The notes beneath the pieces are model-generated. The model searched no databases and was not told the DNA's origin. It saw only the letters and a program-made list of their open reading frames with translations. A program made the translations under genes and the position numbers. 64,000 bases of DNA from NCBI RefSeq assembly GCF_020463795.1, contig NZ_CP080025.1, positions 4,275,501 to 4,339,500 on the forward strand, read 5' to 3'. Positions 22,144 to 34,117 of the stretch are shown here, in pieces (the first letter of the stretch is position 1; each line of letters opens with the position of its first letter). Origin of the DNA: Echinicola marina (GTDB lineage Bacteria > Bacteroidota > Bacteroidia > Cytophagales > Cyclobacteriaceae).

Positions 22144-22318
22144 TGCATTACTACTATTACTATAAATCTCCGGTAAAAATTAAATTCACATTCAAAGAAG
22201 ATGGAGAATTTTTTATTGGAGATGAAGCTAAAGTTTCAATTGAGACACTTTCTTCTTTCTTATATGACCTGAACCTCTTGAATGACTGTTTAGCCTTAGC
22301 ATTAATTGATCAATATTC
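22143..22318 (+). pseudogene. small gene cut by the IS3 element
   Basis: The ATG at 22143 overlaps the previous stop. About 58 codons run in frame (MHYYYYYKSPVKIKFTF, then DGEFFIGDEAKVSIETLSSF) up to the IS3 left end at about 22319. Joining to the sequence after the IS at 23569 gives a few codons and a TAA at 23585-23587, right at a terminator stem, so the original protein was probably about 65 residues. The small size and pairing with the 121-residue gene suggest a two-gene module such as a toxin-antitoxin pair, but no family is recognised. Confidence 0.5.
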
Positions 22319-22361
22319 TGTAAGCTCCCCCAAAAACTGGACAGTTTAAAAGGCGACAAAA

Positions 22362-22646
22362 TTGCTAACTTTGAACTGTATGAAAAAAGGAAGATTTACA
22401 GAGAGCCAGATCATCAAAGCGCTCAAGGAACATGAATCCGGTCGTGACGTTAACGAACTATGCCGGGATTTGGGCATCCACCGGGCTACCTTTTACAATT
22501 GGAAGAAAAAATACGGGGGAATGGAAGTAAAGGAAGTGCAGCGCCTCAAAGAGCTTGAAGAAGAGAACCGCAGGCTCAAGCAAATGTATGCCGACCTGGC
22601 CCTTGACAATAAAATCCTTAAAGATATTCTGGGAAAAAAGTTCTGA
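22362..22646 (+). CDS. IS3 orfA (helix-turn-helix protein)
   Basis: The protein has 94 residues. The helix-turn-helix ESQIIKALKEHESGRDVNEL with CRDLGIHRATFYNWKKKYGG is typical of IS3 OrfA. A leucine-zipper-like end (LKELEEENRRLKQMYADLAL) mediates dimerisation. A6G at 22634-22640 near its end allows -1 frameshifting into orfB to make the OrfAB transposase. The gene itself is intact. Confidence 0.92.
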   Translation: MLTLNCMKKGRFTESQIIKALKEHESGRDVNELCRDLGIHRATFYNWKKKYGGMEVKEVQRLKELEEENRRLKQMYADLALDNKILKDILGKKF

Positions 22647-23497
22647 CCCCTGCTGAGAAGCGGAACGGGGTCGGTTATGTAACGGAGAACTACCCTGTAA
22701 GTATCAGCAGGGCCTGCCGTTTGGTGGGAACCTGCCGTTCAGGACACTATTATAAAAGCCGGAAAGATGACAGTACTTTCTTGGATGTATTGCGTGAAAA
22801 AGCCGAGGAACATTCCAGCTATGGGTTCTGGAAACTGTATAAAAGAATGCGTAAGGATGGGCTATGTTGGAACCACAAAAAGGTATACCGTGGCTATAAA
22901 CTATTGAATCTGGGCATGAGAAGAAAAGGCAAGAAGCGGGTTCCTGAAAGGGTAAAGGAGCCTTTGTTACAGCCATTGTATGCAAACAAAAGCTGGTCAA
23001 TGGATTTTATGAGCGATAGCTTGGTATCGGGAAGACGCTTTCGGACGCTCAATATTATTGATGATTATAACCGGGAATCGCTCCAAATAGAGATAGCAAC
23101 AGGGTTCCCTGCCAAAAGGGTGATCAGGGTGCTGGAAGAAGTTATCTCATGGAGGGGCTAGCCGGAAAGGATCAGGGTGGACAACGGTCCTGAATTCATT
23201 TCTTTGGCATTAAAGGAATGGTGCCGTTCCACAGGTATTGATCTACAGTATATCCAACCGGGAAAACCGATGCAGAACGCCTATATCGAACGTTTTAACA
23301 AAACTTACAGGAATGAGATCCTTGACAGATACCTGTTCTTTGACCTGGAGGAGGTAAGGGAACTCACCAAAAATTGGATGATGGATTACAATGAAAACAG
23401 GCCCCATGACAGCCTGGGTGACATGTCCCCTAAGGAGTTTGCCCAAAGAAATGGGGCGTTAACAGTGGATAACTTCCAAGAAGTTACCCACAATTAA
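22635..23497 (+). pseudogene. IS3 orfB transposase with premature TAG
   Basis: The -1 frame from the slippery site reads KVLTPAEKRNGVGYVTENYP and runs through SMDFMSD (first catalytic Asp), VDNGPEF (second) and [15 protein letters not shown] (Glu). A TAG at 23159-23161 lies between WRG and PERIRVDNG, where relatives have an ordinary residue. Without suppression only the N-terminal half is made, so this copy should not transpose unaided. The two open parts are 22721-23161 and 23177-23497. Confidence 0.88.
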
Positions 23498-23579
23498 CAC
23501 CCTTAATAATAGTATTAACTAAATTTATCTGTCTAATTTTAAACTGTCCAAAGAATGGGAAGCCTTCACTGGGAAAGGG

Positions 23580-23667: not shown

Positions 23668-24906
23668 ATGGAAAATAATAAATTAATATATAGGGAACTA
23701 AAGAAAACTCAAGGTCTGTACCCGTATTTCTCTAATATCAAAAGAGAAGAGGGGAACCTGATCTTGTGTTCCGATTGTTTTCATGACGAAGGTCTCCGTT
23801 TGGATGCATACAAAATTGGAATACACAAAGACATCAAGTGCCAAAATTGCTCGTCGAGCAATGGAAGAAAGCTGACAAGGCAAATTGTACGGGAATTATG
23901 TTACAGGTTTTTCGTCCGTGGAACGATTGAGCGCTTTGATTATGGTGGATTTCCTCTGGTACAAATGAATGAGGAGCGATATAATGATACTGATATAAAG
24001 GTGTCTAAATGGCTTTCTGAAGATGTGAAACTTATTGAGCAAGCTGGAGAAATTGGCTTATTCTATTACAGTCCAAGATTTTGGATGTTCGGAGAAATCG
24101 AACCACTTAAAAACCTTCAAAGTGAGGTAGAAGTTGAAAAGGTTTTAGGACGTATTTTAAAACTTTATCCAAAACATATTTTAAACCAAGATCATTCGTT
24201 TTATCGAATTAGAGTCAATCCAGATACTCCATATAACTTTCCTGAGTATGACACTCCACCGAAAGGATTTGGAAGTGGAAATAGATTGAATTTTGATGGA
24301 GAACCCATTATGTATGCATCTCCGGATCTTGAACTCTGTATTCATGAATGCCGCGCAACCGTGGAAGATGAACTTTATGTAGCGAAACTCGTTCCATCAC
24401 AACCTTTAAAAATGTTAAATCTTGCGGCACTAGTTTCAGAAGAAGGGGTAGATGAATTTACTAGTATAGATTTAGCTGTTCATTTTCTGTTCTTAGCTCC
24501 TAAACACGCTTATCCTATTTGTTCTCGAATTGCGCAATTTATCAAAGAACAAGGATTTGATGGTATTATATTCCCTTCTTATTTCAGCCATTCAAGAACT
24601 GGGGCAATTCCTTTTGAAACCATTTATGGGATGTCTATACGTCGCATCCCTCCTATGAAGAAATATGCTGAGTCACAAAGTGTTCCGAACATCGCTTTAT
24701 TTGGATGGCCTATTAAAGAGGGTAAAGTGAAAATTCATTCTATAAATAAAGTTATAATTAATAATATTAAATACGATCTGTCTTTTGGGCCAGCTTATCA
24801 TGATGGACCAATCGATAAATCACGAAAGGATAATTTTTTTGAACAACAAATGAATTTTGAATTAGAAAAATTCATGAAAGTATTTAGGTCGGACCAAGAT
24901 GAATAA
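23668..24906 (+). CDS. zinc-ribbon RES-domain protein (putative NAD+-consuming effector)
   Basis: The protein has 412 residues from the ATG at 23668. The N-terminus has a zinc-ribbon-like Cys pattern (CSDC at 34-37, CQNC at 58-61). A helical middle (70-170) recalls the HEPN/RES N-terminal domains. The RES domain follows: FYRIR with Arg 180, GNRLN at 204-208, EPIMYAS at 212-218, CIHECRA with Glu 227, and GFDGIIFPSYFS with Ser 304. These fit the Arg-Glu-Ser set that names the family. Characterised RES proteins (RES-Xre toxins) break down NAD+ by phosphorolysis or hydrolysis. No Xre antitoxin gene is adjacent; instead a STAND nuclease follows 199 bases downstream. It may be an effector in a two-gene defence system, or a separate toxin. 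Confidence 0.8.
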   Translation: MENNKLIYRELKKTQGLYPYFSNIKREEGNLILCSDCFHDEGLRLDAYKIGIHKDIKCQNCSSSNGRKLTRQIVRELCYRFFVRGTIERFDYGGFPLVQMNEERYNDTDIKVSKWLSEDVKLIEQAGEIGLFYYSPRFWMFGEIEPLKNLQSEVEVEKVLGRILKLYPKHILNQDHSFYRIRVNPDTPYNFPEYDTPPKGFGSGNRLNFDGEPIMYASPDLELCIHECRATVEDELYVAKLVPSQPLKMLNLAALVSEEGVDEFTSIDLAVHFLFLAPKHAYPICSRIAQFIKEQGFDGIIFPSYFSHSRTGAIPFETIYGMSIRRIPPMKKYAESQSVPNIALFGWPIKEGKVKIHSINKVIINNIKYDLSFGPAYHDGPIDKSRKDNFFEQQMNFELEKFMKVFRSDQDE

Positions 24907-25105
24907 TTATGTTTAGTTGAGTTGAACACGAAATTCGGAAATATGGGGATGGCTGTTAATTATAAACTCCATATATTACACAGTATGATGGTTTTATTGA
25001 TAGTCAAGAACCGCTGAACATAAAGTCAGTCTTTCACTTATTAACAGAAAAGTGTTTAGTCTCTAGAAGTTCTAATTAAAATTTATCACATATTTTTAAA
25101 TCAAC
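24907..25105. other. gap between the RES and STAND genes
   Basis: The gap is 199 bases and AT-rich. No terminator hairpin is visible, so read-through from the RES gene is possible. A separate promoter cannot be excluded. Confidence 0.4.
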
Positions 25106-28100
25106 ATGATTGATGAATGGCTATATCTTGTAAAAAAATTTAGTATCGCAGGAGCGAGACACAAATTTGAAGAGATTTGTGCTAGTCTGTTCAAAAGAAA
25201 ATTCCCTAGTCAAAATGTAAAGTCAGTGCGGGTTAGTGTTGGTGATGGAGGGATTGATATTTTTATAGGTAAATTAGGAATAGAGCCAATCAAAATTGTT
25301 CAATGTAAATTTTTCGTAGATGGGATCAAGGATTCCCAAAGGTCCCAGATTAGAGAGTCATTTAAGAAAATTATTACATCTGATGATTTTATGCCAAGTC
25401 AATGGATATTGTGTATTCCTGAAAAACTAAGTATTAGCGAGCATAAATGGTGGTCGGATTGGAAGAATAGGCAAATCGCCAATTACAATTTATCCCAAGA
25501 ATTCATAGAATTATATGATGGGGAAGATCTTATTGAAGATTTAAGAAAATATGATTTTTATAACGAGGTTTTTGACCACGACTATCGAACTGCTATTAAT
25601 GAAATTCATGAAGTTGTAGTTTCAGGGAAATTGGATTTAGAACATGAACTTAGGTCTGCATCCTTCTTTGTTAGAGATTTAAAGAATTATTTTTCCAAAA
25701 ACACTAATACTCATGTTTCTAGAAAAGAAACTATTGAAATTTTTACTTGGATAAATAGTGATTTACCAGGCAAAAACAAGTACGAGAAATTACTCATAAT
25801 TAAAGGTCTTAAAGGAGTAGGTAAATCCACCATTATTAGAGATTCATATTTCAAATTATCGAATCAAAATGATCTTTTAATATTAGCTATAAAGTGTGAT
25901 CAATTTTATGGTATAAGCTTGAAGGACCTCTCAAAAAAACTCTTTAATAATGTAAATTCATTTCAAGAACTATTTTATACGATTTCTAAGCAAGAAAAAA
26001 AGCTTATTGTGTTTCTTGACCAGTTAGATGCTCTTTCACAAACTCTTTCTTCAAATAGAGAGTATTTACGTACCTATGTAAAGTTGATCTATGAATTAAT
26101 AAACTTAAAAAATGTAAGGATAATAATCTCTTCCCGAAATTTTGACTTAGAGTATGATGCTGATCTTCGAAAAATAAATTCGGAGTCAGGGATAAAAAGA
26201 ATTGAGGTTGGATCCCTTTCTCCAGATGAGGTAAATAAAGTGTTAAAATCTCTTGGAATTAGCGTTAAAAATCAAATGCTGATTAACCTTCTTACTACAC
26301 CATATAATTTAGAGCTATTTACTTTAATCCCAGATCTTGAGAAAATATTACAATACGAAGAAAGGATTCCATTATCTAAGCTTTACTTAGAGTTGTGGGG
26401 GCAAATATTGGTTAATAGAGAGCTTAATGTAATTGATTGTCTTGATGTCGTGGTAGAGCGTATGTATAACGCACATCCCAATTTAATAGATCAATCTTAT
26501 CTCAAAGAGCATCAACCAGAAATAGATTACTTAATATCAAATGGGATAATTTTAAAAAATGAAAACAAGCTTTCCTTTTTTCATCAATCATTTTATGAAC
26601 ATTATTTAGCTCGTTGGTTTGTAGAGTCAAAAAAGGATTTGATCGAGTATATTTTTGATGAAGATCAAAACCTATATATCAGATCTTTGATTAAACAGGT
26701 TATTGAATACTTACGTGAAGTAAATCATAACGAATACATAGACCTATATCGTAAAGCGATTAATAGTGATCATATCAGGTTTCACATAAAATTCCTATTC
26801 ATTTTACAATTTGGGCTAGTTGATATGCCTACCCATAAAGAGAAAAGAATTCTCATAGACATTCTCCAAAATAAATATGGTAAGGTGTTCTTAGATGTGG
26901 TTAATTCAAGGGGATGGATTTATTTTTTAATTACAAATTCTCTTATTCCTGAAAATGAGAATGAAACTTTTCAAATTCTTTTTAGAAACATTAACTATCA
27001 CCCTTATTTAATACTAAGCTATTTAGAAAATTCCTCATTTGAGTCAAAAGAAAAGATGATAGCCGAACTTATTCCCAATATCAAAATTTGGGACCAAGAC
27101 CTATTGCCTTTTTTTAATGAATATTACTCATTTAACGATAATACTGAGATATGGTATTTCGAAACATTAAAGAAGATAGCTCCTCTAGATTTGAATTTTG
27201 TTTTGGAAAAAATCCGACCAGTGGTCATCTCTGAAATGAACCGGCATCACAAACCTTTTAAATTTGATTATAAGTTCGCTAAAATAATTGATCAATTATA
27301 CCAAAATAATCCTAAGAAACTTTCTGAATTTTTATTGTCAATCTTTTTGCAATATCTAGAGGATACAAAATCACTTTATTTCAATGATTATCATGGTATT
27401 GAATCTGAACTTCTTGGATCAAATCATTATGATAATAGGTTGTACTACAAGGATAGTGAAGATGAAAAATCAATAGAGTTCTACCTTCTTAAGTATTACC
27501 GTAACTGTGGGGAAGAGGAAGTAGAAAAAATGATGGATAGTCATATTGAATCAAATTATATCCAACTACTTATAATAATTGCAAAGCTTCTTCAAGAAAG
27601 AGTGAAGGAGTTTACCCATGAAGCTTATCGATTTATTTTAATTATTGATAAAAAAAATGGATTTAAAGGGCCAGATGATTTTTTTCAATTAAATATGCGT
27701 AAGTTAATAAGTGGATCTTTAATTAATTTCAATATCCAGCAATTTTTAGCAATTAAAGAGATACTACTTACTATATCTAACCCCTATGAGATAGTTAAAT
27801 ATACAAATGAAGGAAAAAGGAAATTATCGCTTAAACTAGGTTTAAAACAATACCTTTTTATTAAAGCTTTGCCAGATGGTATCCGACAAAAAGATATAGA
27901 ACTAAAAAGGAAATATCAAATGTTTAGTCGACGGTTTGGGGAAGTTGATTATAATAAAGCATTTGATAGACCTAAAAGTAGTTTTGGTCCGGCTAGGTCT
28001 CCACTTTCTAATCCAAATTTTGATAAATTCGGTCATCAGGCATGGATTAATAGCATGAGAAAAATAGATGAGAACTTTAAATCCGATGACTTTTTCAAAG

Positions 28101-29389
28101 GAGGGTTGTTAGAACTTTCAAGGTCATTTAGTGCCACTGTTAAGAAAAAACCCGATTATTTATTTGGACTTATTGTTAGGCTTTTTAATGAAAGAGGTAT
28201 TTCTCCTTCATATATTTCTCAGGGTATTTCCGGACTAATTGATGCCGAATTTGATGGGAGTAAAATATCGGAGCTAATAGAAAAAGAAATTAAGCTGGAC
28301 CTAGATAAAAGCCATACGCTCTATGCCGTATGGCACACACAGTATTTAATTGATTTATCCCTAGTATCTGAAAAAATCATCAATTTTTGGGTCTCGACTG
28401 CTAAATCATCACTATACTTGGATGATGTATTAAACCCTAATGACCCACTAATGGATTTTATTAATACTCCAAGAGGAGCAGCGATTTATAGTTTGATCCA
28501 TTCATATATGTACCCACAATATAAAGAGTCCATTTTTTCAACCATTGAATTTGTTATTAGTCCAAAGAATAATCCTTCATCAACAATTTTAGCTGGGATT
28601 ATGACAAATTTAGGGCTACTTAACCATCTTGATATCGAGAGATCTTTTTTGATTTTCCAGAAACTCATTGCACTTAAAAGTCCCATAATACTTAAACACT
28701 CAATAATGTCCGCTCAATATTTCAACAATGTGTTTCATGATAGGATGGGTTTTTATTTCGAAGAAATGCTTTTACATGAGGAATTATATGACAAATGCTA
28801 CTTTTTTATTAGTAGCTGGATATTTGACCATATCAGTGATTACGAAATGTACGATAACTTCATAAATCTTGGAGAAAAGTCCATTAAGTGCGGAATCGAA
28901 GTAGCCGAGGAACTCTTAATTAATAATGGAAAAATAAATACCAAAGCAATAGAAGTATTAGAAAGATGTATGAAGTATCCTGATATTGATATATCAAACG
29001 ACCTTTCGGGATTGATTTTAAGAAAATTTAAAATTGAAAATTTTCGGGAGCTCTACAGCTTTATTGAGAAATATATAAGTACTCCTCATTTCAGGGATGA
29101 TCCTCAATATTTGTTTGATTTTTTGCTAGAATGCTCTGCTTTATATCCTACAGAATGTTTGGCGTTATTAGTTGATATGGATGTTCCAGAAAATGTTGAT
29201 ATAAGAAAAAGAGCTTTCAATGGCGATGAGTCTTTGGTTCTTATCCTATCCATTTACTCTAAATTAAGACTAAAGCCATTTAAATATTTGGACGAGCAAA
29301 ATACTGCTTTGGATGTATTTGATAAACTATTGCAGGTACCTTCAATTCGAAACAGAGCTAATGATGCTTTGGATAAAGCTTTAAATTAA
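25106..29389 (+). CDS. PD-(D/E)XK nuclease-STAND NTPase, Avs-like defence protein
   Basis: The protein has 1427 residues. Residues 1-160 form a Mrr/Cap4-like restriction fold: Glu 22/23 in HKFEEICASLF, Asp 51 in GDGGIDIFIG, and QCK at 66-68. A STAND-type P-loop ATPase follows, with Walker A GLKGVGKST (234-242), Walker B LIVFLDQLDAL (Asp 305, Asp 308) and an arginine-bearing strand IIISSRNFD (about 340-347). A winged-helix-like segment ends around residue 510 (SFFHQSFYEHYLARWF). The remaining 900 residues are alpha-helical repeat material that would sense a ligand. In Avs proteins the sensor binds phage terminase or portal and the nuclease then cuts DNA. It is cytosolic, with no transmembrane segment seen. 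It follows a RES gene and has no toxin-antitoxin partner. Avs subtype is uncertain. Confidence 0.8.
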   Translation: MIDEWLYLVKKFSIAGARHKFEEICASLFKRKFPSQNVKSVRVSVGDGGIDIFIGKLGIEPIKIVQCKFFVDGIKDSQRSQIRESFKKIITSDDFMPSQWILCIPEKLSISEHKWWSDWKNRQIANYNLSQEFIELYDGEDLIEDLRKYDFYNEVFDHDYRTAINEIHEVVVSGKLDLEHELRSASFFVRDLKNYFSKNTNTHVSRKETIEIFTWINSDLPGKNKYEKLLIIKGLKGVGKSTIIRDSYFKLSNQNDLLILAIKCDQFYGISLKDLSKKLFNNVNSFQELFYTISKQEKKLIVFLDQLDALSQTLSSNREYLRTYVKLIYELINLKNVRIIISSRNFDLEYDADLRKINSESGIKRIEVGSLSPDEVNKVLKSLGISVKNQMLINLLTTPYNLELFTLIPDLEKILQYEERIPLSKLYLELWGQILVNRELNVIDCLDVVVERMYNAHPNLIDQSYLKEHQPEIDYLISNGIILKNENKLSFFHQSFYEHYLARWFVESKKDLIEYIFDEDQNLYIRSLIKQVIEYLREVNHNEYIDLYRKAINSDHIRFHIKFLFILQFGLVDMPTHKEKRILIDILQNKYGKVFLDVVNSRGWIYFLITNSLIPENENETFQILFRNINYHPYLILSYLENSSFESKEKMIAELIPNIKIWDQDLLPFFNEYYSFNDNTEIWYFETLKKIAPLDLNFVLEKIRPVVISEMNRHHKPFKFDYKFAKIIDQLYQNNPKKLSEFLLSIFLQYLEDTKSLYFNDYHGIESELLGSNHYDNRLYYKDSEDEKSIEFYLLKYYRNCGEEEVEKMMDSHIESNYIQLLIIIAKLLQERVKEFTHEAYRFILIIDKKNGFKGPDDFFQLNMRKLISGSLINFNIQQFLAIKEILLTISNPYEIVKYTNEGKRKLSLKLGLKQYLFIKALPDGIRQKDIELKRKYQMFSRRFGEVDYNKAFDRPKSSFGPARSPLSNPNFDKFGHQAWINSMRKIDENFKSDDFFKGGLLELSRSFSATVKKKPDYLFGLIVRLFNERGISPSYISQGISGLIDAEFDGSKISELIEKEIKLDLDKSHTLYAVWHTQYLIDLSLVSEKIINFWVSTAKSSLYLDDVLNPNDPLMDFINTPRGAAIYSLIHSYMYPQYKESIFSTIEFVISPKNNPSSTILAGIMTNLGLLNHLDIERSFLIFQKLIALKSPIILKHSIMSAQYFNNVFHDRMGFYFEEMLLHEELYDKCYFFISSWIFDHISDYEMYDNFINLGEKSIKCGIEVAEELLINNGKINTKAIEVLERCMKYPDIDISNDLSGLILRKFKIENFRELYSFIEKYISTPHFRDDPQYLFDFLLECSALYPTECLALLVDMDVPENVDIRKRAFNGDESLVLILSIYSKLRLKPFKYLDEQNTALDVFDKLLQVPSIRNRANDALDKALN

Positions 29390-29915
29390 TTTAAGTGGAT
29401 ATCTTTCCCAACGTTTAATTGTATGGCAAAATAAGAAGCGGCATAATTTTTTTGTTTTTTGGGCTAATAGTTTTAAGTGTTATTATTATGGTCAGCTTGA
29501 TTTACTTTTTTAATAATCAATGAGGTTGGGTTGGCGGTGTTGCCTTTGGTATGTTATTACGATACGTGGCGATTTTATGGGGTGAACGAATTAATGCTAA
29601 TACCATTAAAAGAGTATTATCTGAAGCTTATATTTCTCTAGGTAAATGGTCAGATGCAACCCTTTTGTATATTCCGATTCATGTTGACCACCTGTTCCAG
29701 TGATGCTGACCACTTTTTTCCGATGATGTTGACCACCCCCCTTCTGGGTATCAACTTTTGTCGAAGGGTAAAATTCCGGTGATATTGACCACTGTCAATC
29801 CGGCCATGTTGACCACCACTTTAAGTGGTCAGAATGGCCAGAATGACATTATTGACCACCTTTAATTTTTCAGTTATCGTTTCCTTTACGGTTGATTTAA
29901 AACCAACCGTAAAGC

Positions 29916-31463
29916 ATGGCAGGAAAAACGATAACCATGAGTAATCTCAAACAGATAATTCGCCACCGTGACAACGGAATGGCACTGCAGACCATCTCCA
30001 AAACCTTGGGAATTGCCCGGAACACGGTCAAGAAGTACCTTCAGCTGATTGATTCCAAAGGTTTTTCTTACGGAGAGCTTTTGTCCATGAATGACGAAGA
30101 GCTTGATGCCCTACTTTCTGATCCGGACCATGTTTCAGGGGAGCGGTACCAGGAGCTTATATCTTTTTTTCCCTATATGGAACCGGAGCTTAAACGGACC
30201 GGTGTGAACCGTTGGGTCCTGTGGGGAGAATACAGACAAAAACATCCTGACGGATACAGTTACTCACAGTTCTGTGAAAGCTTCAGGCAGTGGCGTACCG
30301 GTCTATCTGCCAGTATGAGAATTGAACATGTTCCGGGAGATAAATTCTATATAGACTTTACGGGTGATAGGCTGTCCATAGTAGATCCTGTAACAGGTGA
30401 ACTCACTGATCTGGAAGTGTATGTTGCCACACTCGGAGCCAGTCAATACAGCTATGTAGAAGCCATTCCCTCCCAAAGAAAAGAAGACTTCATAGCAGCC
30501 ACTGAAAATGCTTTACATTACCTGGGCGGTGTTCCCAGGGCCCTGGTGCCCGACAACCTCAAAAGCGCGGTCACCAAAGCCGACAAGTATGAACCGGCCA
30601 TCAACCCCGATTTCCTGGACTTTGCCAACCATTACGGCTGTGTGGTCTTTCCGGCAAGGAGCAGGAAGCCGCAGGACAAGGCCTTGGTGGAAAAGACCGT
30701 CAGCATTGTCTACAGCAGGATATACGCCCCGCTCAGAAACAAAGTTTACCATGACATCAATACACTGAATGCGGATATACGGCACTACCTCAATATCCAT
30801 AACAATACCCCTTTCCAGAAAAGACCGGAAACAAGGAAGGAGCTTTTCGACAGGGAAGAAAAGGGAACCCTGGCCCCCCTGCCTGCCGAAAGATATGAAC
30901 TCAAACAGTTCAAGTATGCCACCGTCACTAAAACCTCCCACATATCCCTGAACCCTGAAAACCATTATTATTCTATTCCCTACAGGTATATCGGCAAAAA
31001 AGTCAAGGTTGTGTACTCAGCCAGTTACGTTTCTGTTTTCTACGATGGGGAAAGGATCGCTTTTCATAAAAGAAGCCTTAAGGAGCGCGGATACACTACG
31101 GTCCAGGACCATATGCCTTCAGCCCACAGGTTTGTAAGTGACTGGAACCCTGAATTCTTCCTGAACTGGGCAAAAGGGATACATCCTGAAGTCCGGCATT
31201 ATTTACAGGTTATCCTCGACAGTTACCCGTATCCGGAACAGGCCTATAAAAGCTGTCTGGGGATTTTGGGATATGATAAAAAGGCAGGCAGGGAAAGGCT
31301 CATAAACGCAGTAATACGTGCCAAACACTACAACACTTATAATTATTCGGTCATCACCAGAATACTCAACAGCGGGATGGATTCAATCCCTTTAGATACT
31401 GAAAACAAGTCCGATAAATCAGTTGACCACGAAAACATAAGGGGAGCGGAAAGCTTCAGGTAA
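29916..31463 (+). CDS. istA: IS21 transposase IstA
   Basis: The protein has 515 residues; the ATG at 29916 is used. It has an N-terminal helix-turn-helix (HRDNGMALQTISKTLGIARN). The DDE core begins YIDFTGDRLSIVD (first Asp) and runs through VEAIPSQRKEDFIAATENAL, LVPDNLKSAV (second Asp) and the KALVEKTVSIVYSRI region with the catalytic Glu. A C-terminal Mu-type beta-barrel follows. There are no frameshifts. IstA makes the strand transfer while IstB, encoded 29 bases further on, acts as its ATPase helper. GC content is higher than in the surrounding DNA. Confidence 0.93.
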   Translation: MAGKTITMSNLKQIIRHRDNGMALQTISKTLGIARNTVKKYLQLIDSKGFSYGELLSMNDEELDALLSDPDHVSGERYQELISFFPYMEPELKRTGVNRWVLWGEYRQKHPDGYSYSQFCESFRQWRTGLSASMRIEHVPGDKFYIDFTGDRLSIVDPVTGELTDLEVYVATLGASQYSYVEAIPSQRKEDFIAATENALHYLGGVPRALVPDNLKSAVTKADKYEPAINPDFLDFANHYGCVVFPARSRKPQDKALVEKTVSIVYSRIYAPLRNKVYHDINTLNADIRHYLNIHNNTPFQKRPETRKELFDREEKGTLAPLPAERYELKQFKYATVTKTSHISLNPENHYYSIPYRYIGKKVKVVYSASYVSVFYDGERIAFHKRSLKERGYTTVQDHMPSAHRFVSDWNPEFFLNWAKGIHPEVRHYLQVILDSYPYPEQAYKSCLGILGYDKKAGRERLINAVIRAKHYNTYNYSVITRILNSGMDSIPLDTENKSDKSVDHENIRGAESFR

Positions 31464-31492
31464 TTATCAAACATATAACCGATCACACAATT

Positions 31493-32218
31493 ATGACACA
31501 GAGCATCGCATTGAACCAGATGTCCAAAATGAAGTTTCACGGAATGATGGAAGCATACAAAACCATTCTGGACAGCAACAAACATCATGATCTCAATCCC
31601 GAAGAGCTTATAAACCATCTCTTGCAGGCAGAATGGGAAGAAAGAGAGAACAGGAAAATCAACAGACTGTACAAAACGGCAAAGTTCAGGTACAGTGCCA
31701 CTGTTGAAGAGCTTGAGTTCTCTCCAAACCGGGGGCTGGATAAAATGCAGGTCCTCAGACTTGCTGATATGTCCTTTATTAAACGAAAAGAAAACATACT
31801 GATCACAGGAGCAACAGGGGCCGGCAAAAGCTACATTGCTTCGGCCCTGGGAAACCAAGCCTGTATGCAAGGGGTCAGAACCCAATATTATAATACCACC
31901 AAGCTGTTCCCGAAACTCAAAATGCTGAAAGCTGACGGCTCATATATCAAAGAGATAGCGAGAATAGAAAAACAGGATTTATTGATCCTGGATGACTTCG
32001 GCATTCAGCAACTGGATGAAATGGCAAGAATGGCCCTGCTTGAAATCATAGAAGACCGCCATGGAAGGGCTTCAACAATAGTGGTATCACAACTTCCGGT
32101 TACAAAATGGTTCGAAACCATAGGTGACAGTACCATAGCCGACGCTGTTCTCGACAGACTGGTGCACACCGCACACAGAATCGAGCTAAAAGGAGAATCA
32201 ATGAGAAAAAAACAATAA
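31493..32218 (+). CDS. istB: IS21 helper ATPase IstB
   Basis: The protein has 241 residues. The AAA+ core has Walker A ITGATGAGKSY (about 103-112), Walker B LLILDDFGIQ, a sensor-1 serine in STIVVSQLPV and an arginine (LDRLVHTAHRI). It is DnaC-like and binds target DNA non-specifically to direct IstA. The gene starts at the ATG at 31493, 29 bases after istA, and is intact, so this element is potentially active. Confidence 0.95.
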   Translation: MTQSIALNQMSKMKFHGMMEAYKTILDSNKHHDLNPEELINHLLQAEWEERENRKINRLYKTAKFRYSATVEELEFSPNRGLDKMQVLRLADMSFIKRKENILITGATGAGKSYIASALGNQACMQGVRTQYYNTTKLFPKLKMLKADGSYIKEIARIEKQDLLILDDFGIQQLDEMARMALLEIIEDRHGRASTIVVSQLPVTKWFETIGDSTIADAVLDRLVHTAHRIELKGESMRKKQ

Positions 32219-32683
32219 CATTAACAGCCTCCAAACGGTAACTGAAAACCCTAATTGAAAGGGTGGTCAGGATGACCGGATTGGTGGTCAAGATCATCGG
32301 AATATACACTTTCCAGGATATTCATAAATAAACTATCAGCATATTTGGATAAACATTATAAAAAAGAAGCAGTTGATTTACTTATGGAGGGAGTTAAAAA
32401 TAAAGGGAAAAATGAGATCTCAGAAATAATTATTTCCTCCACTATTATAGGAGCCTTCTTTTTATCATGGTTGGGTATATATTTAGGCACGATCGAAAAA
32501 GAGTATTTCGAAATGATCTCCTTACTTTTGTTTATTATAATTGTACCAAGTGTTTTTTATTTGGTTCCTGGAATTTTACGAAGTAGAGACCATCTAATCT
32601 CAGAAAAGGGAAATTGGGATGAGCTTTATGATATTTTGGTTCAAGTTAAATTGGAAAGAATGAAAAGGGATAACAAGGAGTAA

Positions 32684-33332
32684 TGATTCTACTTTTTATT
32701 CATTTATTTGACAATGCTTCGTAACTTGTTTGGCTGAAAAGTTTTTATAAGTTAACATGGCTAAATAATCCTTTTTTCTACTGACTGGGTGAGAATGTTA
32801 GTTCACCGTAATATTCTAGGAATTTGAATTCACGTATCCTGATTTTATAATTGTCGCTAGGTTGTTGAAATATATAATATTTCCAAGAAATAATTGACCT
32901 GAAGGCAACGTATCCCCAAGACATCCCCTAGGTATATGTTAGAAAGATACTAGGGAGAGGGGAAAAAATAGAAGGGTATTAGCCAGGAGTAATGGGGCTT
33001 GAGATGGCTGAAATTAGCTGAGTCGGAGACGCTGGTTTATGAAGTCCTGCACCTGTGCGCCGTGGCGTAGCTCAGCTGCTAGGACAACGGGGAACATGGA
33101 GGAGACGTAGTGGGAACGTTCAAATTTTATCTCTGTTTATCTCATTTGTTGTAGATAGCTGATTAAATCAGCACATCCCAAAATTGAAGGATGATCTTTT
33201 CAAGCTAATTTAGATTTTTATCCGAACAGCATGATTTTTTTTGAGAGGAGGAACGCATTAATTCCGATTCTTTTTTGATTAAAAAAAAGGTTCTACTTTT
33301 GAATTGATGGACCAATAGATAATTATTTGAAT
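32684..33332. other. 650-base noncoding gap with a GC/purine-rich core
   Basis: No gene is visible. Bases about 32895-33120 are richer in G and purines than their surroundings, have stops in all frames and contain a bulged stem CCCTAGGTAT...ATACTAGGG (about 32924-32954). It could be a structured RNA or relic DNA. A fragment GGCGTAGCTCAGCTGC (33064-33079) looks tRNA-like but no cloverleaf follows. Confidence 0.4.
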
Positions 33333-33809
33333 ATGTCAAAAGATATTAGATGGGAGCAAAGGTTTTCTAACTATAATAAGGCCCTCCTTAAGCTTGAAGA
33401 AGCAGTGAAGTATATTAGGGAGAATTATTATACCAATGGTGAATATGATGAGCTACTTTTCGAAAAGGGAGAGGATATTGTTAAAGAAGGTTTGATCCAA
33501 CGATTTGAATATACCCATGAATTGGCTTGGAATGTAATGAAGGACTTCCTAAAAGAAAAAGGGAACAATGAGATATATGGATCCAAGGATGCTACAAGAG
33601 AAGCTTTTAGTACTGGTTTGATTACTGAAGGAAAAGTATGGATGGAAATGATCCAAAGTAGGAATAAAACTTCCCATACTTATAATGAAGATACTGCTCA
33701 GGAAATTTTTTCAAAAATATTAGAGGAGTATTATCCTGAGTTTTTAACTTTTAAAGTAATAATGGAAAATAAACGTAGTGGGGAGCAAAAAGACATTTTT
33801 GAAAGATGA
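33333..33809 (+). CDS. HEPN-type nucleotidyltransferase partner (HI0074-like)
   Basis: The protein has 158 residues from the ATG at 33333; a TTG two codons earlier is less likely. It is all-helical with EGLIQRFEYTHELAWNVMKD (about 57-76) and REAFSTGLI...WMEMIQSRNKTSHTY (about 90-117), which carries the RxxxxH-like RNKTSH motif of HEPN proteins. HI0074-type proteins form a complex with the MNT protein encoded next. In related pairs the HEPN protein is an RNase toxin, silenced by nucleotidylation by MNT; this class has also been called a substrate-binding subunit. The stop overlaps the next start (ATGA). Confidence 0.9.
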   Translation: MSKDIRWEQRFSNYNKALLKLEEAVKYIRENYYTNGEYDELLFEKGEDIVKEGLIQRFEYTHELAWNVMKDFLKEKGNNEIYGSKDATREAFSTGLITEGKVWMEMIQSRNKTSHTYNEDTAQEIFSKILEEYYPEFLTFKVIMENKRSGEQKDIFER

Positions 33810-34117
33810 AATTTGGTCTTTTAAAAGAGGAAATAGCATCTATTAACAAGATATTTTCCGAGTACCCAGCAATATCTAAAGTTATTCTATACGGTTCCCG
33901 TGCCAAGGGAAATTTTCGTCCAGCGTCGGATATCGATTTGACAATTGAAGCCGAAGGTTTTGATCTTAGTGACCTGTTTGACCTAGAAAACAGATTGGAT
34001 GATATGCTTTTACCTTATAAGATTGATTTGTCCATAAAGAAACATATTAATAATCAGGAACTATTAGATCATATCAATAGGGTAGGGAAAATTTTTTACA
34101 TAAGAAATAATGCTTAG
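33806..34117 (+). CDS. MNT-type minimal nucleotidyltransferase (HI0073-like)
   Basis: The protein has 103 residues. The nucleotidyltransferase signature is complete: ILYGSRAKGNFRPASDIDLTI (about 28-48), with Gly-Ser and the Asp-x-Asp metal pair, and a later LPYKIDLSIKKH with the third acidic residue. It is co-translated with the HEPN gene by a 4-base overlap. It probably AMPylates the HEPN partner. A 3' fragment of a second copy lies at 2-127. The radC gene follows after a conserved leader. Confidence 0.93.
   Translation: MKFGLLKEEIASINKIFSEYPAISKVILYGSRAKGNFRPASDIDLTIEAEGFDLSDLFDLENRLDDMLLPYKIDLSIKKHINNQELLDHINRVGKIFYIRNNA

Follow-up and report, generated by a model that had tools for sequence, protein, structure and literature searches.

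A stretch of 64,000 nucleotides from Echinicola marina (contig NZ_CP080025.1, positions 4,275,501 to 4,339,500 of the forward strand; the whole stretch is termed the window) was found to carry a gene for a predicted Avs-like nuclease of the nucleotide-binding leucine-rich-repeat receptor (NLR) type, which by its sensor sequence is neither an Avs2 nor an Avs4. This gene is likely to constitute a one-protein, NLR-like antiphage system. It is an intact open reading frame (ORF) of 1427 codons with an ATG start (25106..29389 on the plus strand in the ORF listing) and is not a chance reading, since five other distinct full-length homologues exist (L001 to L004 and L049, the last from genome G464), with 49–57% identity to the window protein. 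G412 was counted as the record of L001, its contig being of equal length (66,708), and the rows of L048/G036 are broken pieces; both were left out of this homologue count.

Domain organization of the window protein

The protein possesses the broad Avs-like architecture of an N-terminal effector, a central STAND NTPase and a C-terminal repeat sensor within one chain (Table 1). An earlier sequence-only reading had proposed the order nuclease, STAND NTPase and long helical C-terminus as in Avs proteins, and the LmuA match, the models and the VIA structure comparisons agree with it. The ORF and all motif positions given in that reading were exact, and its sensor boundary at residue 520 was close, as the winged-helix part ends near residue 510 in the model. 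Structure prediction, proposed there as a check and run here with AlphaFold2, returned a PD-(D/E)XK-like N-terminus, a NACHT fold and a helical region at 500–1427. Placement in a non-defence family or a missing nuclease fold had been named as results that would speak against it; a nuclease fold was predicted, and the only non-defence family above its cut-off was the general AAA model. The NCBIfam scan of the whole gene gave only noise, and a phmmer search of the Protein Data Bank (PDB) with the window protein alone gave only weak Vps4 matches (E 0.39 and worse).

Table 1. Domains of the protein encoded in the window, with the evidence for each.
Feature	Position in window	Strand	Evidence
Single-gene nuclease-STAND-solenoid protein, 1427 aa	25106..29389	+	ORF; five full-length homologues
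Predicted PD-(D/E)XK nuclease, LmuA/Mrr type (D51, Q66, K68), residues 1-160	25106..25585	+	PADLOC LmuA, Pfam Mrr_cat, predicted fold, motifs
Linker, residues 161-199 (165-174 pLDDT <50)	25586..25702	+	AlphaFold2 model
Predicted NACHT-type STAND NTPase and winged helix, residues 200-510	25703..26635	+	VIA, Pfam, hhalign to Avs2/Avs4
Putative helical sensor, first part, residues 511-970	26636..28015	+	Model of 500-1427; alignment of 16 proteins over 500-1427
Putative HEAT/ARM-like C-terminal sensor, residues 971-1427	28016..29386	+	VIA matches; conservation

In the translation, GLKGVGKST occupies residues 234–242 (Walker A) and DQLD residues 305–308 (Walker B), with D51 and Q66-C67-K68 in place and FFHQSF at 491–496. 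An alignment of the window protein with four full-length relatives (A1) has D51, Q66, C67, K68, G234, K236, G237, V238, G239, K240, T242 and D305–D308 invariant, the Walker A stretch varying at positions 235 and 241 only. A first full-length MAFFT run misaligned residues beyond 800, and its identities there were not used.

The PADLOC model of LmuA (Lamassu) matches residues 15–171 with an E value of 4.3e-25, while Pfam Mrr_cat reaches 23.1 bits against a cut-off of 21 for residues 1–180 scanned alone and 19.1 bits, just under this cut-off, on the whole protein. In the AlphaFold2 model of residues 1–640 (19 sequences; predicted local distance difference test, pLDDT, 86.7; predicted template modelling score, pTM, 0.66) the nuclease consists of a helix (3–32), three strands (38–42, 49–54 and 62–68), a helix (76–90) and a further strand (97–103), of which the second and third strands, neighbours in the model, carry D51 and Q66/K68, respectively. 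The pattern D...(E/Q)xK is the active site of PD-(D/E)XK enzymes, and the modelled order of elements is the one expected of that fold. The N-terminal domain is thus predicted to have a PD-(D/E)XK nuclease fold with conserved catalytic residues. GDGG[IV]D and QCKFF are kept in all ten rows of alignment A3 having the window-type nuclease; two Avs2 rows (L054 and L055) have GDGG[IV]E and QAKWF instead.

For the NTPase, VIA aligned residues ~175–632 of the same model with NLRP3, NLRP9, NLRC4 and NOD2 at Z scores of 20–21.6 and 10–14% identity. Residues 175–632 are therefore predicted to fold like the NACHT modules of NLRs, the structural evidence being clearer than that from Pfam, in which the general AAA model is above its cut-off (23.1 of 21.2 bits). 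The best Foldseek match of model 1–640 was 8dgf, an Avs4 bound to phage portal (1.6e-17). VIA aligned model residues 2–640 with residues 4–660 of the 8dgf chain at Z 15.6 but with a root mean square deviation of 25.2, which indicates that the domains are placed differently. Model residues 10–421 were aligned with Avs3 (8dgc) at Z 12.0, and the fold lists for residues 1–640 also contain Avs3 and Avs5 structures.

Residues 500–1427 are modelled as an almost wholly helical alpha-solenoid (15 sequences, pLDDT 84.4, pTM 0.55). Foldseek returned karyopherins and CAND1 at 1e-5 and weaker with TM under 0.3, and VIA returned importin-alpha, PP2A and other ARM/HEAT chains, mostly over model residues 464–928, at Z 13.3–16.4, although values near 13 may reflect an arrangement common to helical repeats. 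The closest predicted folds of the sensor are accordingly generic HEAT/ARM solenoids; the 50 fold matches displayed contain no Avs chain, which in itself proves nothing.

Hypervariability is not a feature of the sensor, which is about as identical between homologues as the other domains are. Among six homologues, invariant positions make up 34% of the nuclease, 26% of the linker, 42% of the NTPase and 36, 28, 34 and 34% of successive sensor regions, with residues 1201–1427 the most conserved (46%). Such conservation would be unlike that of an arms-race surface. For four pairs drawn from L001, L002, L003 and L049 (the window copy not being in these pairs), the ratio of nonsynonymous to synonymous divergence (dN/dS) was 0.07–0.27 in all eight regions, and these four homologues are under purifying selection. 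Among the same four, synonymous divergence (dS) changes from one part of the gene to another, a pattern that recombination of segments might leave: for L003 and L049 it is 0.13 in the nuclease and 0.34–0.65 elsewhere, and for L001 and L003 it is 0.21 in the NTPase and 0.64 in the nuclease.

Comparison with named defence systems

The alignment A1 was compared by hhalign with eight Avs2-type proteins, of which five were scanned and match PADLOC Avs2 models, two more are 64–66% identical to one of these and the eighth (L084) had no PADLOC scan. Homology was found over residues 15–507 only (probability 99.1, E 1.7e-18). Against Avs4 the NTPase (~202–488) was aligned at E 1.9e-7, with the nuclease outside the aligned part. 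By contrast, the sensor profile A4 gave a probability of 0.8% against the eight Avs2-type proteins (E 0.075 for a single pair), 0.15% against one Escherichia coli Avs4 (E 0.4 for a single pair) and 0.3% against one Avs1b-like protein. As positive controls, proteins outside A4 were matched over most of its length: L074 at 3.8e-92, a Herpetosiphon plasmid protein at 1.6e-39, L076 at 4.5e-33, L080 at 5.8e-30 and a Rhizobium plasmid protein at 5.9e-23. L075 was matched at 1.7e-6 over half of the sensor. At the level of sequence profiles, then, homology of the sensor to its counterparts in Avs2 and Avs4 is not detectable.

The window protein therefore resembles Avs2 in being a single long protein with a homologous nuclease and STAND NTPase, and differs from it in the C-terminal sensor; one PADLOC Avs2 model reaches only 0.029 on it. 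With Avs4 (8dgf and the E. coli plasmid protein L108) it shares domain order, the best Foldseek match and NTPase homology, whereas its sensor shows no detectable sequence similarity to that of the one Avs4 compared. The PADLOC models of Avs4, Avs1, Avs3 and Avs5 gave no match to it at E up to 1. When the Avs4 model was searched in 118 genomes, short weak matches appeared in 20 (best 6.8e-6, ~50–110 positions; controls 0 of 14) and were not used. LmuA of Lamassu has the same type of N-terminal nuclease domain, which in the window protein is fused to a STAND NTPase and a sensor, and no LmuB was found beside the gene: PADLOC detected no SMC-like LmuB among the eight window neighbours scanned, the two other nearest genes being istA and istB of an IS21 element.

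Profile comparison, likewise proposed in the sequence-only reading, thus supports the Avs likeness for residues 15–507 (Avs2) and the NTPase (Avs4), and left the sensor without a match to the Avs1b-like, Avs2 and Avs4 proteins. That reading had also called the sensor unlike anything that could be named. In sequence, this is correct as regards the Avs2 and Avs4 sensors, but not more widely, as the sensor belongs to a wide family with relatives matched by PADLOC PDC-M54A and a distant homologue of solved structure, 9n00.

Distribution and the wider receptor family

Matches at E up to 0.001 were found in 5 of 148 genomes of the family, 19 of 390 of the order, 3 of 395 of the class and 15 of 395 of the phylum; these overlapping samples include nuclease-only matches and the genome of the window itself. 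Within the genus, protein search found the gene in one of 11 genomes, that of the window, a DNA comparison having been set aside because it was dominated by copies of insertion sequences (IS). One genome of the family (G036) holds only separate pieces of relatives (L008, L012–L014 and L048), some with internal stops. A copy from Pedobacter is 86.5–87.0% identical to two named Algoriphagus copies despite the two genera being of different orders, which is in keeping with horizontal transfer. The G+C content of the gene is ~0.30–0.32 (24001–28000) compared with 0.35–0.42 at 32001–64000, a weak mark of transfer that was not relied upon, because values as low occur elsewhere in the window.

Named records containing the sensor family come from Bacteroidota, Chloroflexota and Pseudomonadota. 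A tree of the STAND-sensor part was built from 24 proteins (13 of 21 inner branches starred), in which the window protein groups with its five homologues in a single clade (100/100). Twelve of the other 18 match the window protein by BLAST, with alignments that extend into the sensor's second half; L109, L110 and L076 align by profile and L075 partly so, while the inclusion of L077 and L078 is based on how close they are to L080. Candidate PDC-M54A models match the STAND part in all 12 distant relatives scanned, whereas this uncharacterized PADLOC candidate gave no match to the window protein at E up to 1.

The N-termini borne by this receptor differ. That of L039 is of Avs4 type (PADLOC Avs4 8.9e-59 over 49–515, positions 1–442 of a model of 1570; 3.4e-21 to 8dgf over 49–314), and yet L039 groups at 100/100 with L040, L041 and L047, whose nuclease-like N-terminus is another. 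L046 gave Cap4_nuclease at 0.032, passing no cut-off, and Pfam scans of the N-termini of L046, L076, L080, L109, L110, L075, L044, L040 and L039 put none of the nine above a cut-off. No nuclease was seen in the sequences of L044 (also scanned with Pfam), L006 and L043, the last of which starts 23 bases from a contig end and may be cut. The effector labels on the tree (‘B’, ‘G’, ‘none’ and Cap4) are in part the authors' own reading of the sequences, with L075, L109 and L110 unlabelled. Over the 21 labelled rows and six states a minimum of five effector changes is required; as five is the floor for six states, this speaks for different N-termini on one receptor and not for repeated swapping. By sequence comparison, one STAND-sensor part thus stands behind different N-termini. 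L046 and L006, both on long branches, are paired in the tree (a kind of grouping of which the tool warns), and L006 was left out of the fold alignment.

In Segatella copri (L006, 6296–11822) a STAND-sensor protein with a short N-terminus lies ~90 bases after a gene annotated DUF2971, upstream of which are genes annotated as an AAA family ATPase and a UvrD-helicase protein. Here the effector may possibly act in trans.

Among solved structures, 9n00 (1523 aa, an AAA family ATPase according to its depositors; also 9n01 and 9yix) is homologous in NTPase and sensor and differs in giving no match before chain residue 262. Its NTPase was matched at 3.1e-33, and the sensor profile A7, widened with far relatives, found chain residues 576–1519 at 1.8e-15. 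The next PDB match of A7 was an engineered repeat protein at 4e-4, the level at which generic helical repeats begin. The narrower sensor profile A2, of 16 proteins, missed 9n00 at E up to 1, its sole PDB match being at 0.6. L110 matches 9n00 in the NTPase only, and no PDB chain was found by phmmer for L080 at E up to 0.01. A literature search found no paper naming 9N00, 9N01 or 9YIX. Matches of an OloA model to the L047 sensor (2.6e-4) and of HEAT_2, under its cut-off, to the L040 sensor were taken as repeat background.

Genomic context and proposed function

A gene for a RES-domain protein (23668–24906; Pfam RES 2.8e-11) lies just upstream on the same strand; it has no match among 76 ORFs around the five homologues, and the sole plasmid relative, in Polaromonas, is annotated as a RES family NAD+ phosphorylase. 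Further upstream (~22318–23568), two ORFs make up an IS3-type transposase, which has a 93% identical counterpart in a genome of the genus. An IS21-type element (istA/istB, ~29660–32312) follows directly downstream, with six more copies at 100% identity in the genome, and a HI0074/HepT-like and MntA-like nucleotidyltransferase pair is located at 33327–34117. A constant partner, the RES gene or any other, was rejected, as none of ten window neighbours matches the 76 ORFs by BLAST and the five homologues have no neighbouring gene in common. The only sharing among these ORFs was of background genes, mainly of L003 and L049, and of a three-gene set (L001 278–2100 and L004 14481–16258), 48–53% identical gene by gene, which lies 8 kb upstream of the homologue in L001 and immediately downstream of it in L004.

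Ten author-chosen neighbours of the homologues were scanned. L001 is accompanied by a CBASS (cyclase, HORMA, TRIP13 and NucC), a type IIG restriction enzyme and PDC-M29A, L002 by an Avs1b-like protein, L003 by GajB and L004 by a helicase that PbeA matches in part (1.1e-13). Three-gene ATPase sets adjoin the distant relatives L041 and L074.

It is proposed that in the resting state the NACHT-type NTPase would keep the protein inactive. During infection the C-terminal alpha-solenoid would bind a conserved phage protein, upon which the NTPase would switch and oligomerize as NLRs and Avs proteins do, and the oligomer would bring the Mrr/LmuA-type PD-(D/E)XK domains together. These would then cut double-stranded phage and host DNA, so that the infection would end with the death of the cell; the outcome is probably abortive infection. 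Ligand binding, oligomerization and nuclease activation are proposed by analogy with Avs1–4, whose nuclease effectors are reported to cut both phage and host DNA, thereby killing the cell, once terminase, portal or Ksap1 has been sensed (PMC12931631). The sensor may recognize a new phage target, as the sequence-only reading had suggested.

Several observations weigh against an antiphage role. The window copy is flanked by transposases and a RES gene, with the HepT/MntA-like pair 4 kb on, and the eight window neighbours scanned gave no known PADLOC system beyond the nucleotidyltransferase-type matches of this pair. Read by eye, the L049 neighbourhood shows no defence genes, and the neighbours of nine distant relatives show no clear defence island beyond L041 and L074. 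No relative was found in the phage collection, searched with the window protein and L109, nor in viral contigs with six peptide patterns of the window protein, which reach close relatives only. In the whole protein no Pfam STAND or NACHT family is above its cut-off, nSTAND3 reaching 24.5 of 27.2 and NACHT 22.3 of 26.7 bits, with AAA_14 also under.

The same machine might watch a host factor or a state of damage (a chaperone, replication or DNA integrity, plasmid entry) in place of a phage protein, which we consider unlikely. A host ligand would explain both a sensor that is not hypervariable and the greatest conservation lying in its last region, and DnaJ is reported to mediate phage sensing by bNACHT25 (PMC12169576). 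However, a conserved phage fold would explain the same conservation, as has been reported of terminase and portal for Avs1–4 (PMC12931631).

That the protein is simply a divergent Avs2 or Avs4, sensing terminase or portal, is very improbable: its nuclease and NTPase are homologous to Avs2 and an Avs4 is its top Foldseek match, but the sensor profile that finds no match in Avs2 (0.8%) or one Avs4 (0.15%) does find far relatives at 3.8e-92 to 5.9e-23, although a convergent recognition of terminase or portal is conceivable. More improbable again is a Lamassu or CBASS effector in need of partner genes. The LmuA type of the nuclease would suit it, as would the Cap4 nuclease domain described in CBASS and many Lamassu systems (PMC10586767), yet the scanned window neighbours contain no LmuB or cyclase match, the five homologues have no common neighbour, and the CBASS beside L001 has its own NucC.

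Beyond the one-protein antiphage system, it is advanced only tentatively, with more doubt than confidence, that residues 200–1427 represent a widespread and undescribed class of bacterial pattern-recognition receptor in Bacteroidota, Chloroflexota and Pseudomonadota, with a HEAT-type sensor for a conserved phage protein outside the targets of Avs1–5 and an N-terminal effector exchanged between several nucleases and, perhaps, effectors in trans. If the proposed antiphage function is right, a receptor class with a sensor of its own would be added to the bacterial NLR-like repertoire. As the sensor is conserved, common to different N-termini and has a distant homologue of solved structure, its trigger could be sought directly, and the exchange of effectors could be studied on one receptor.

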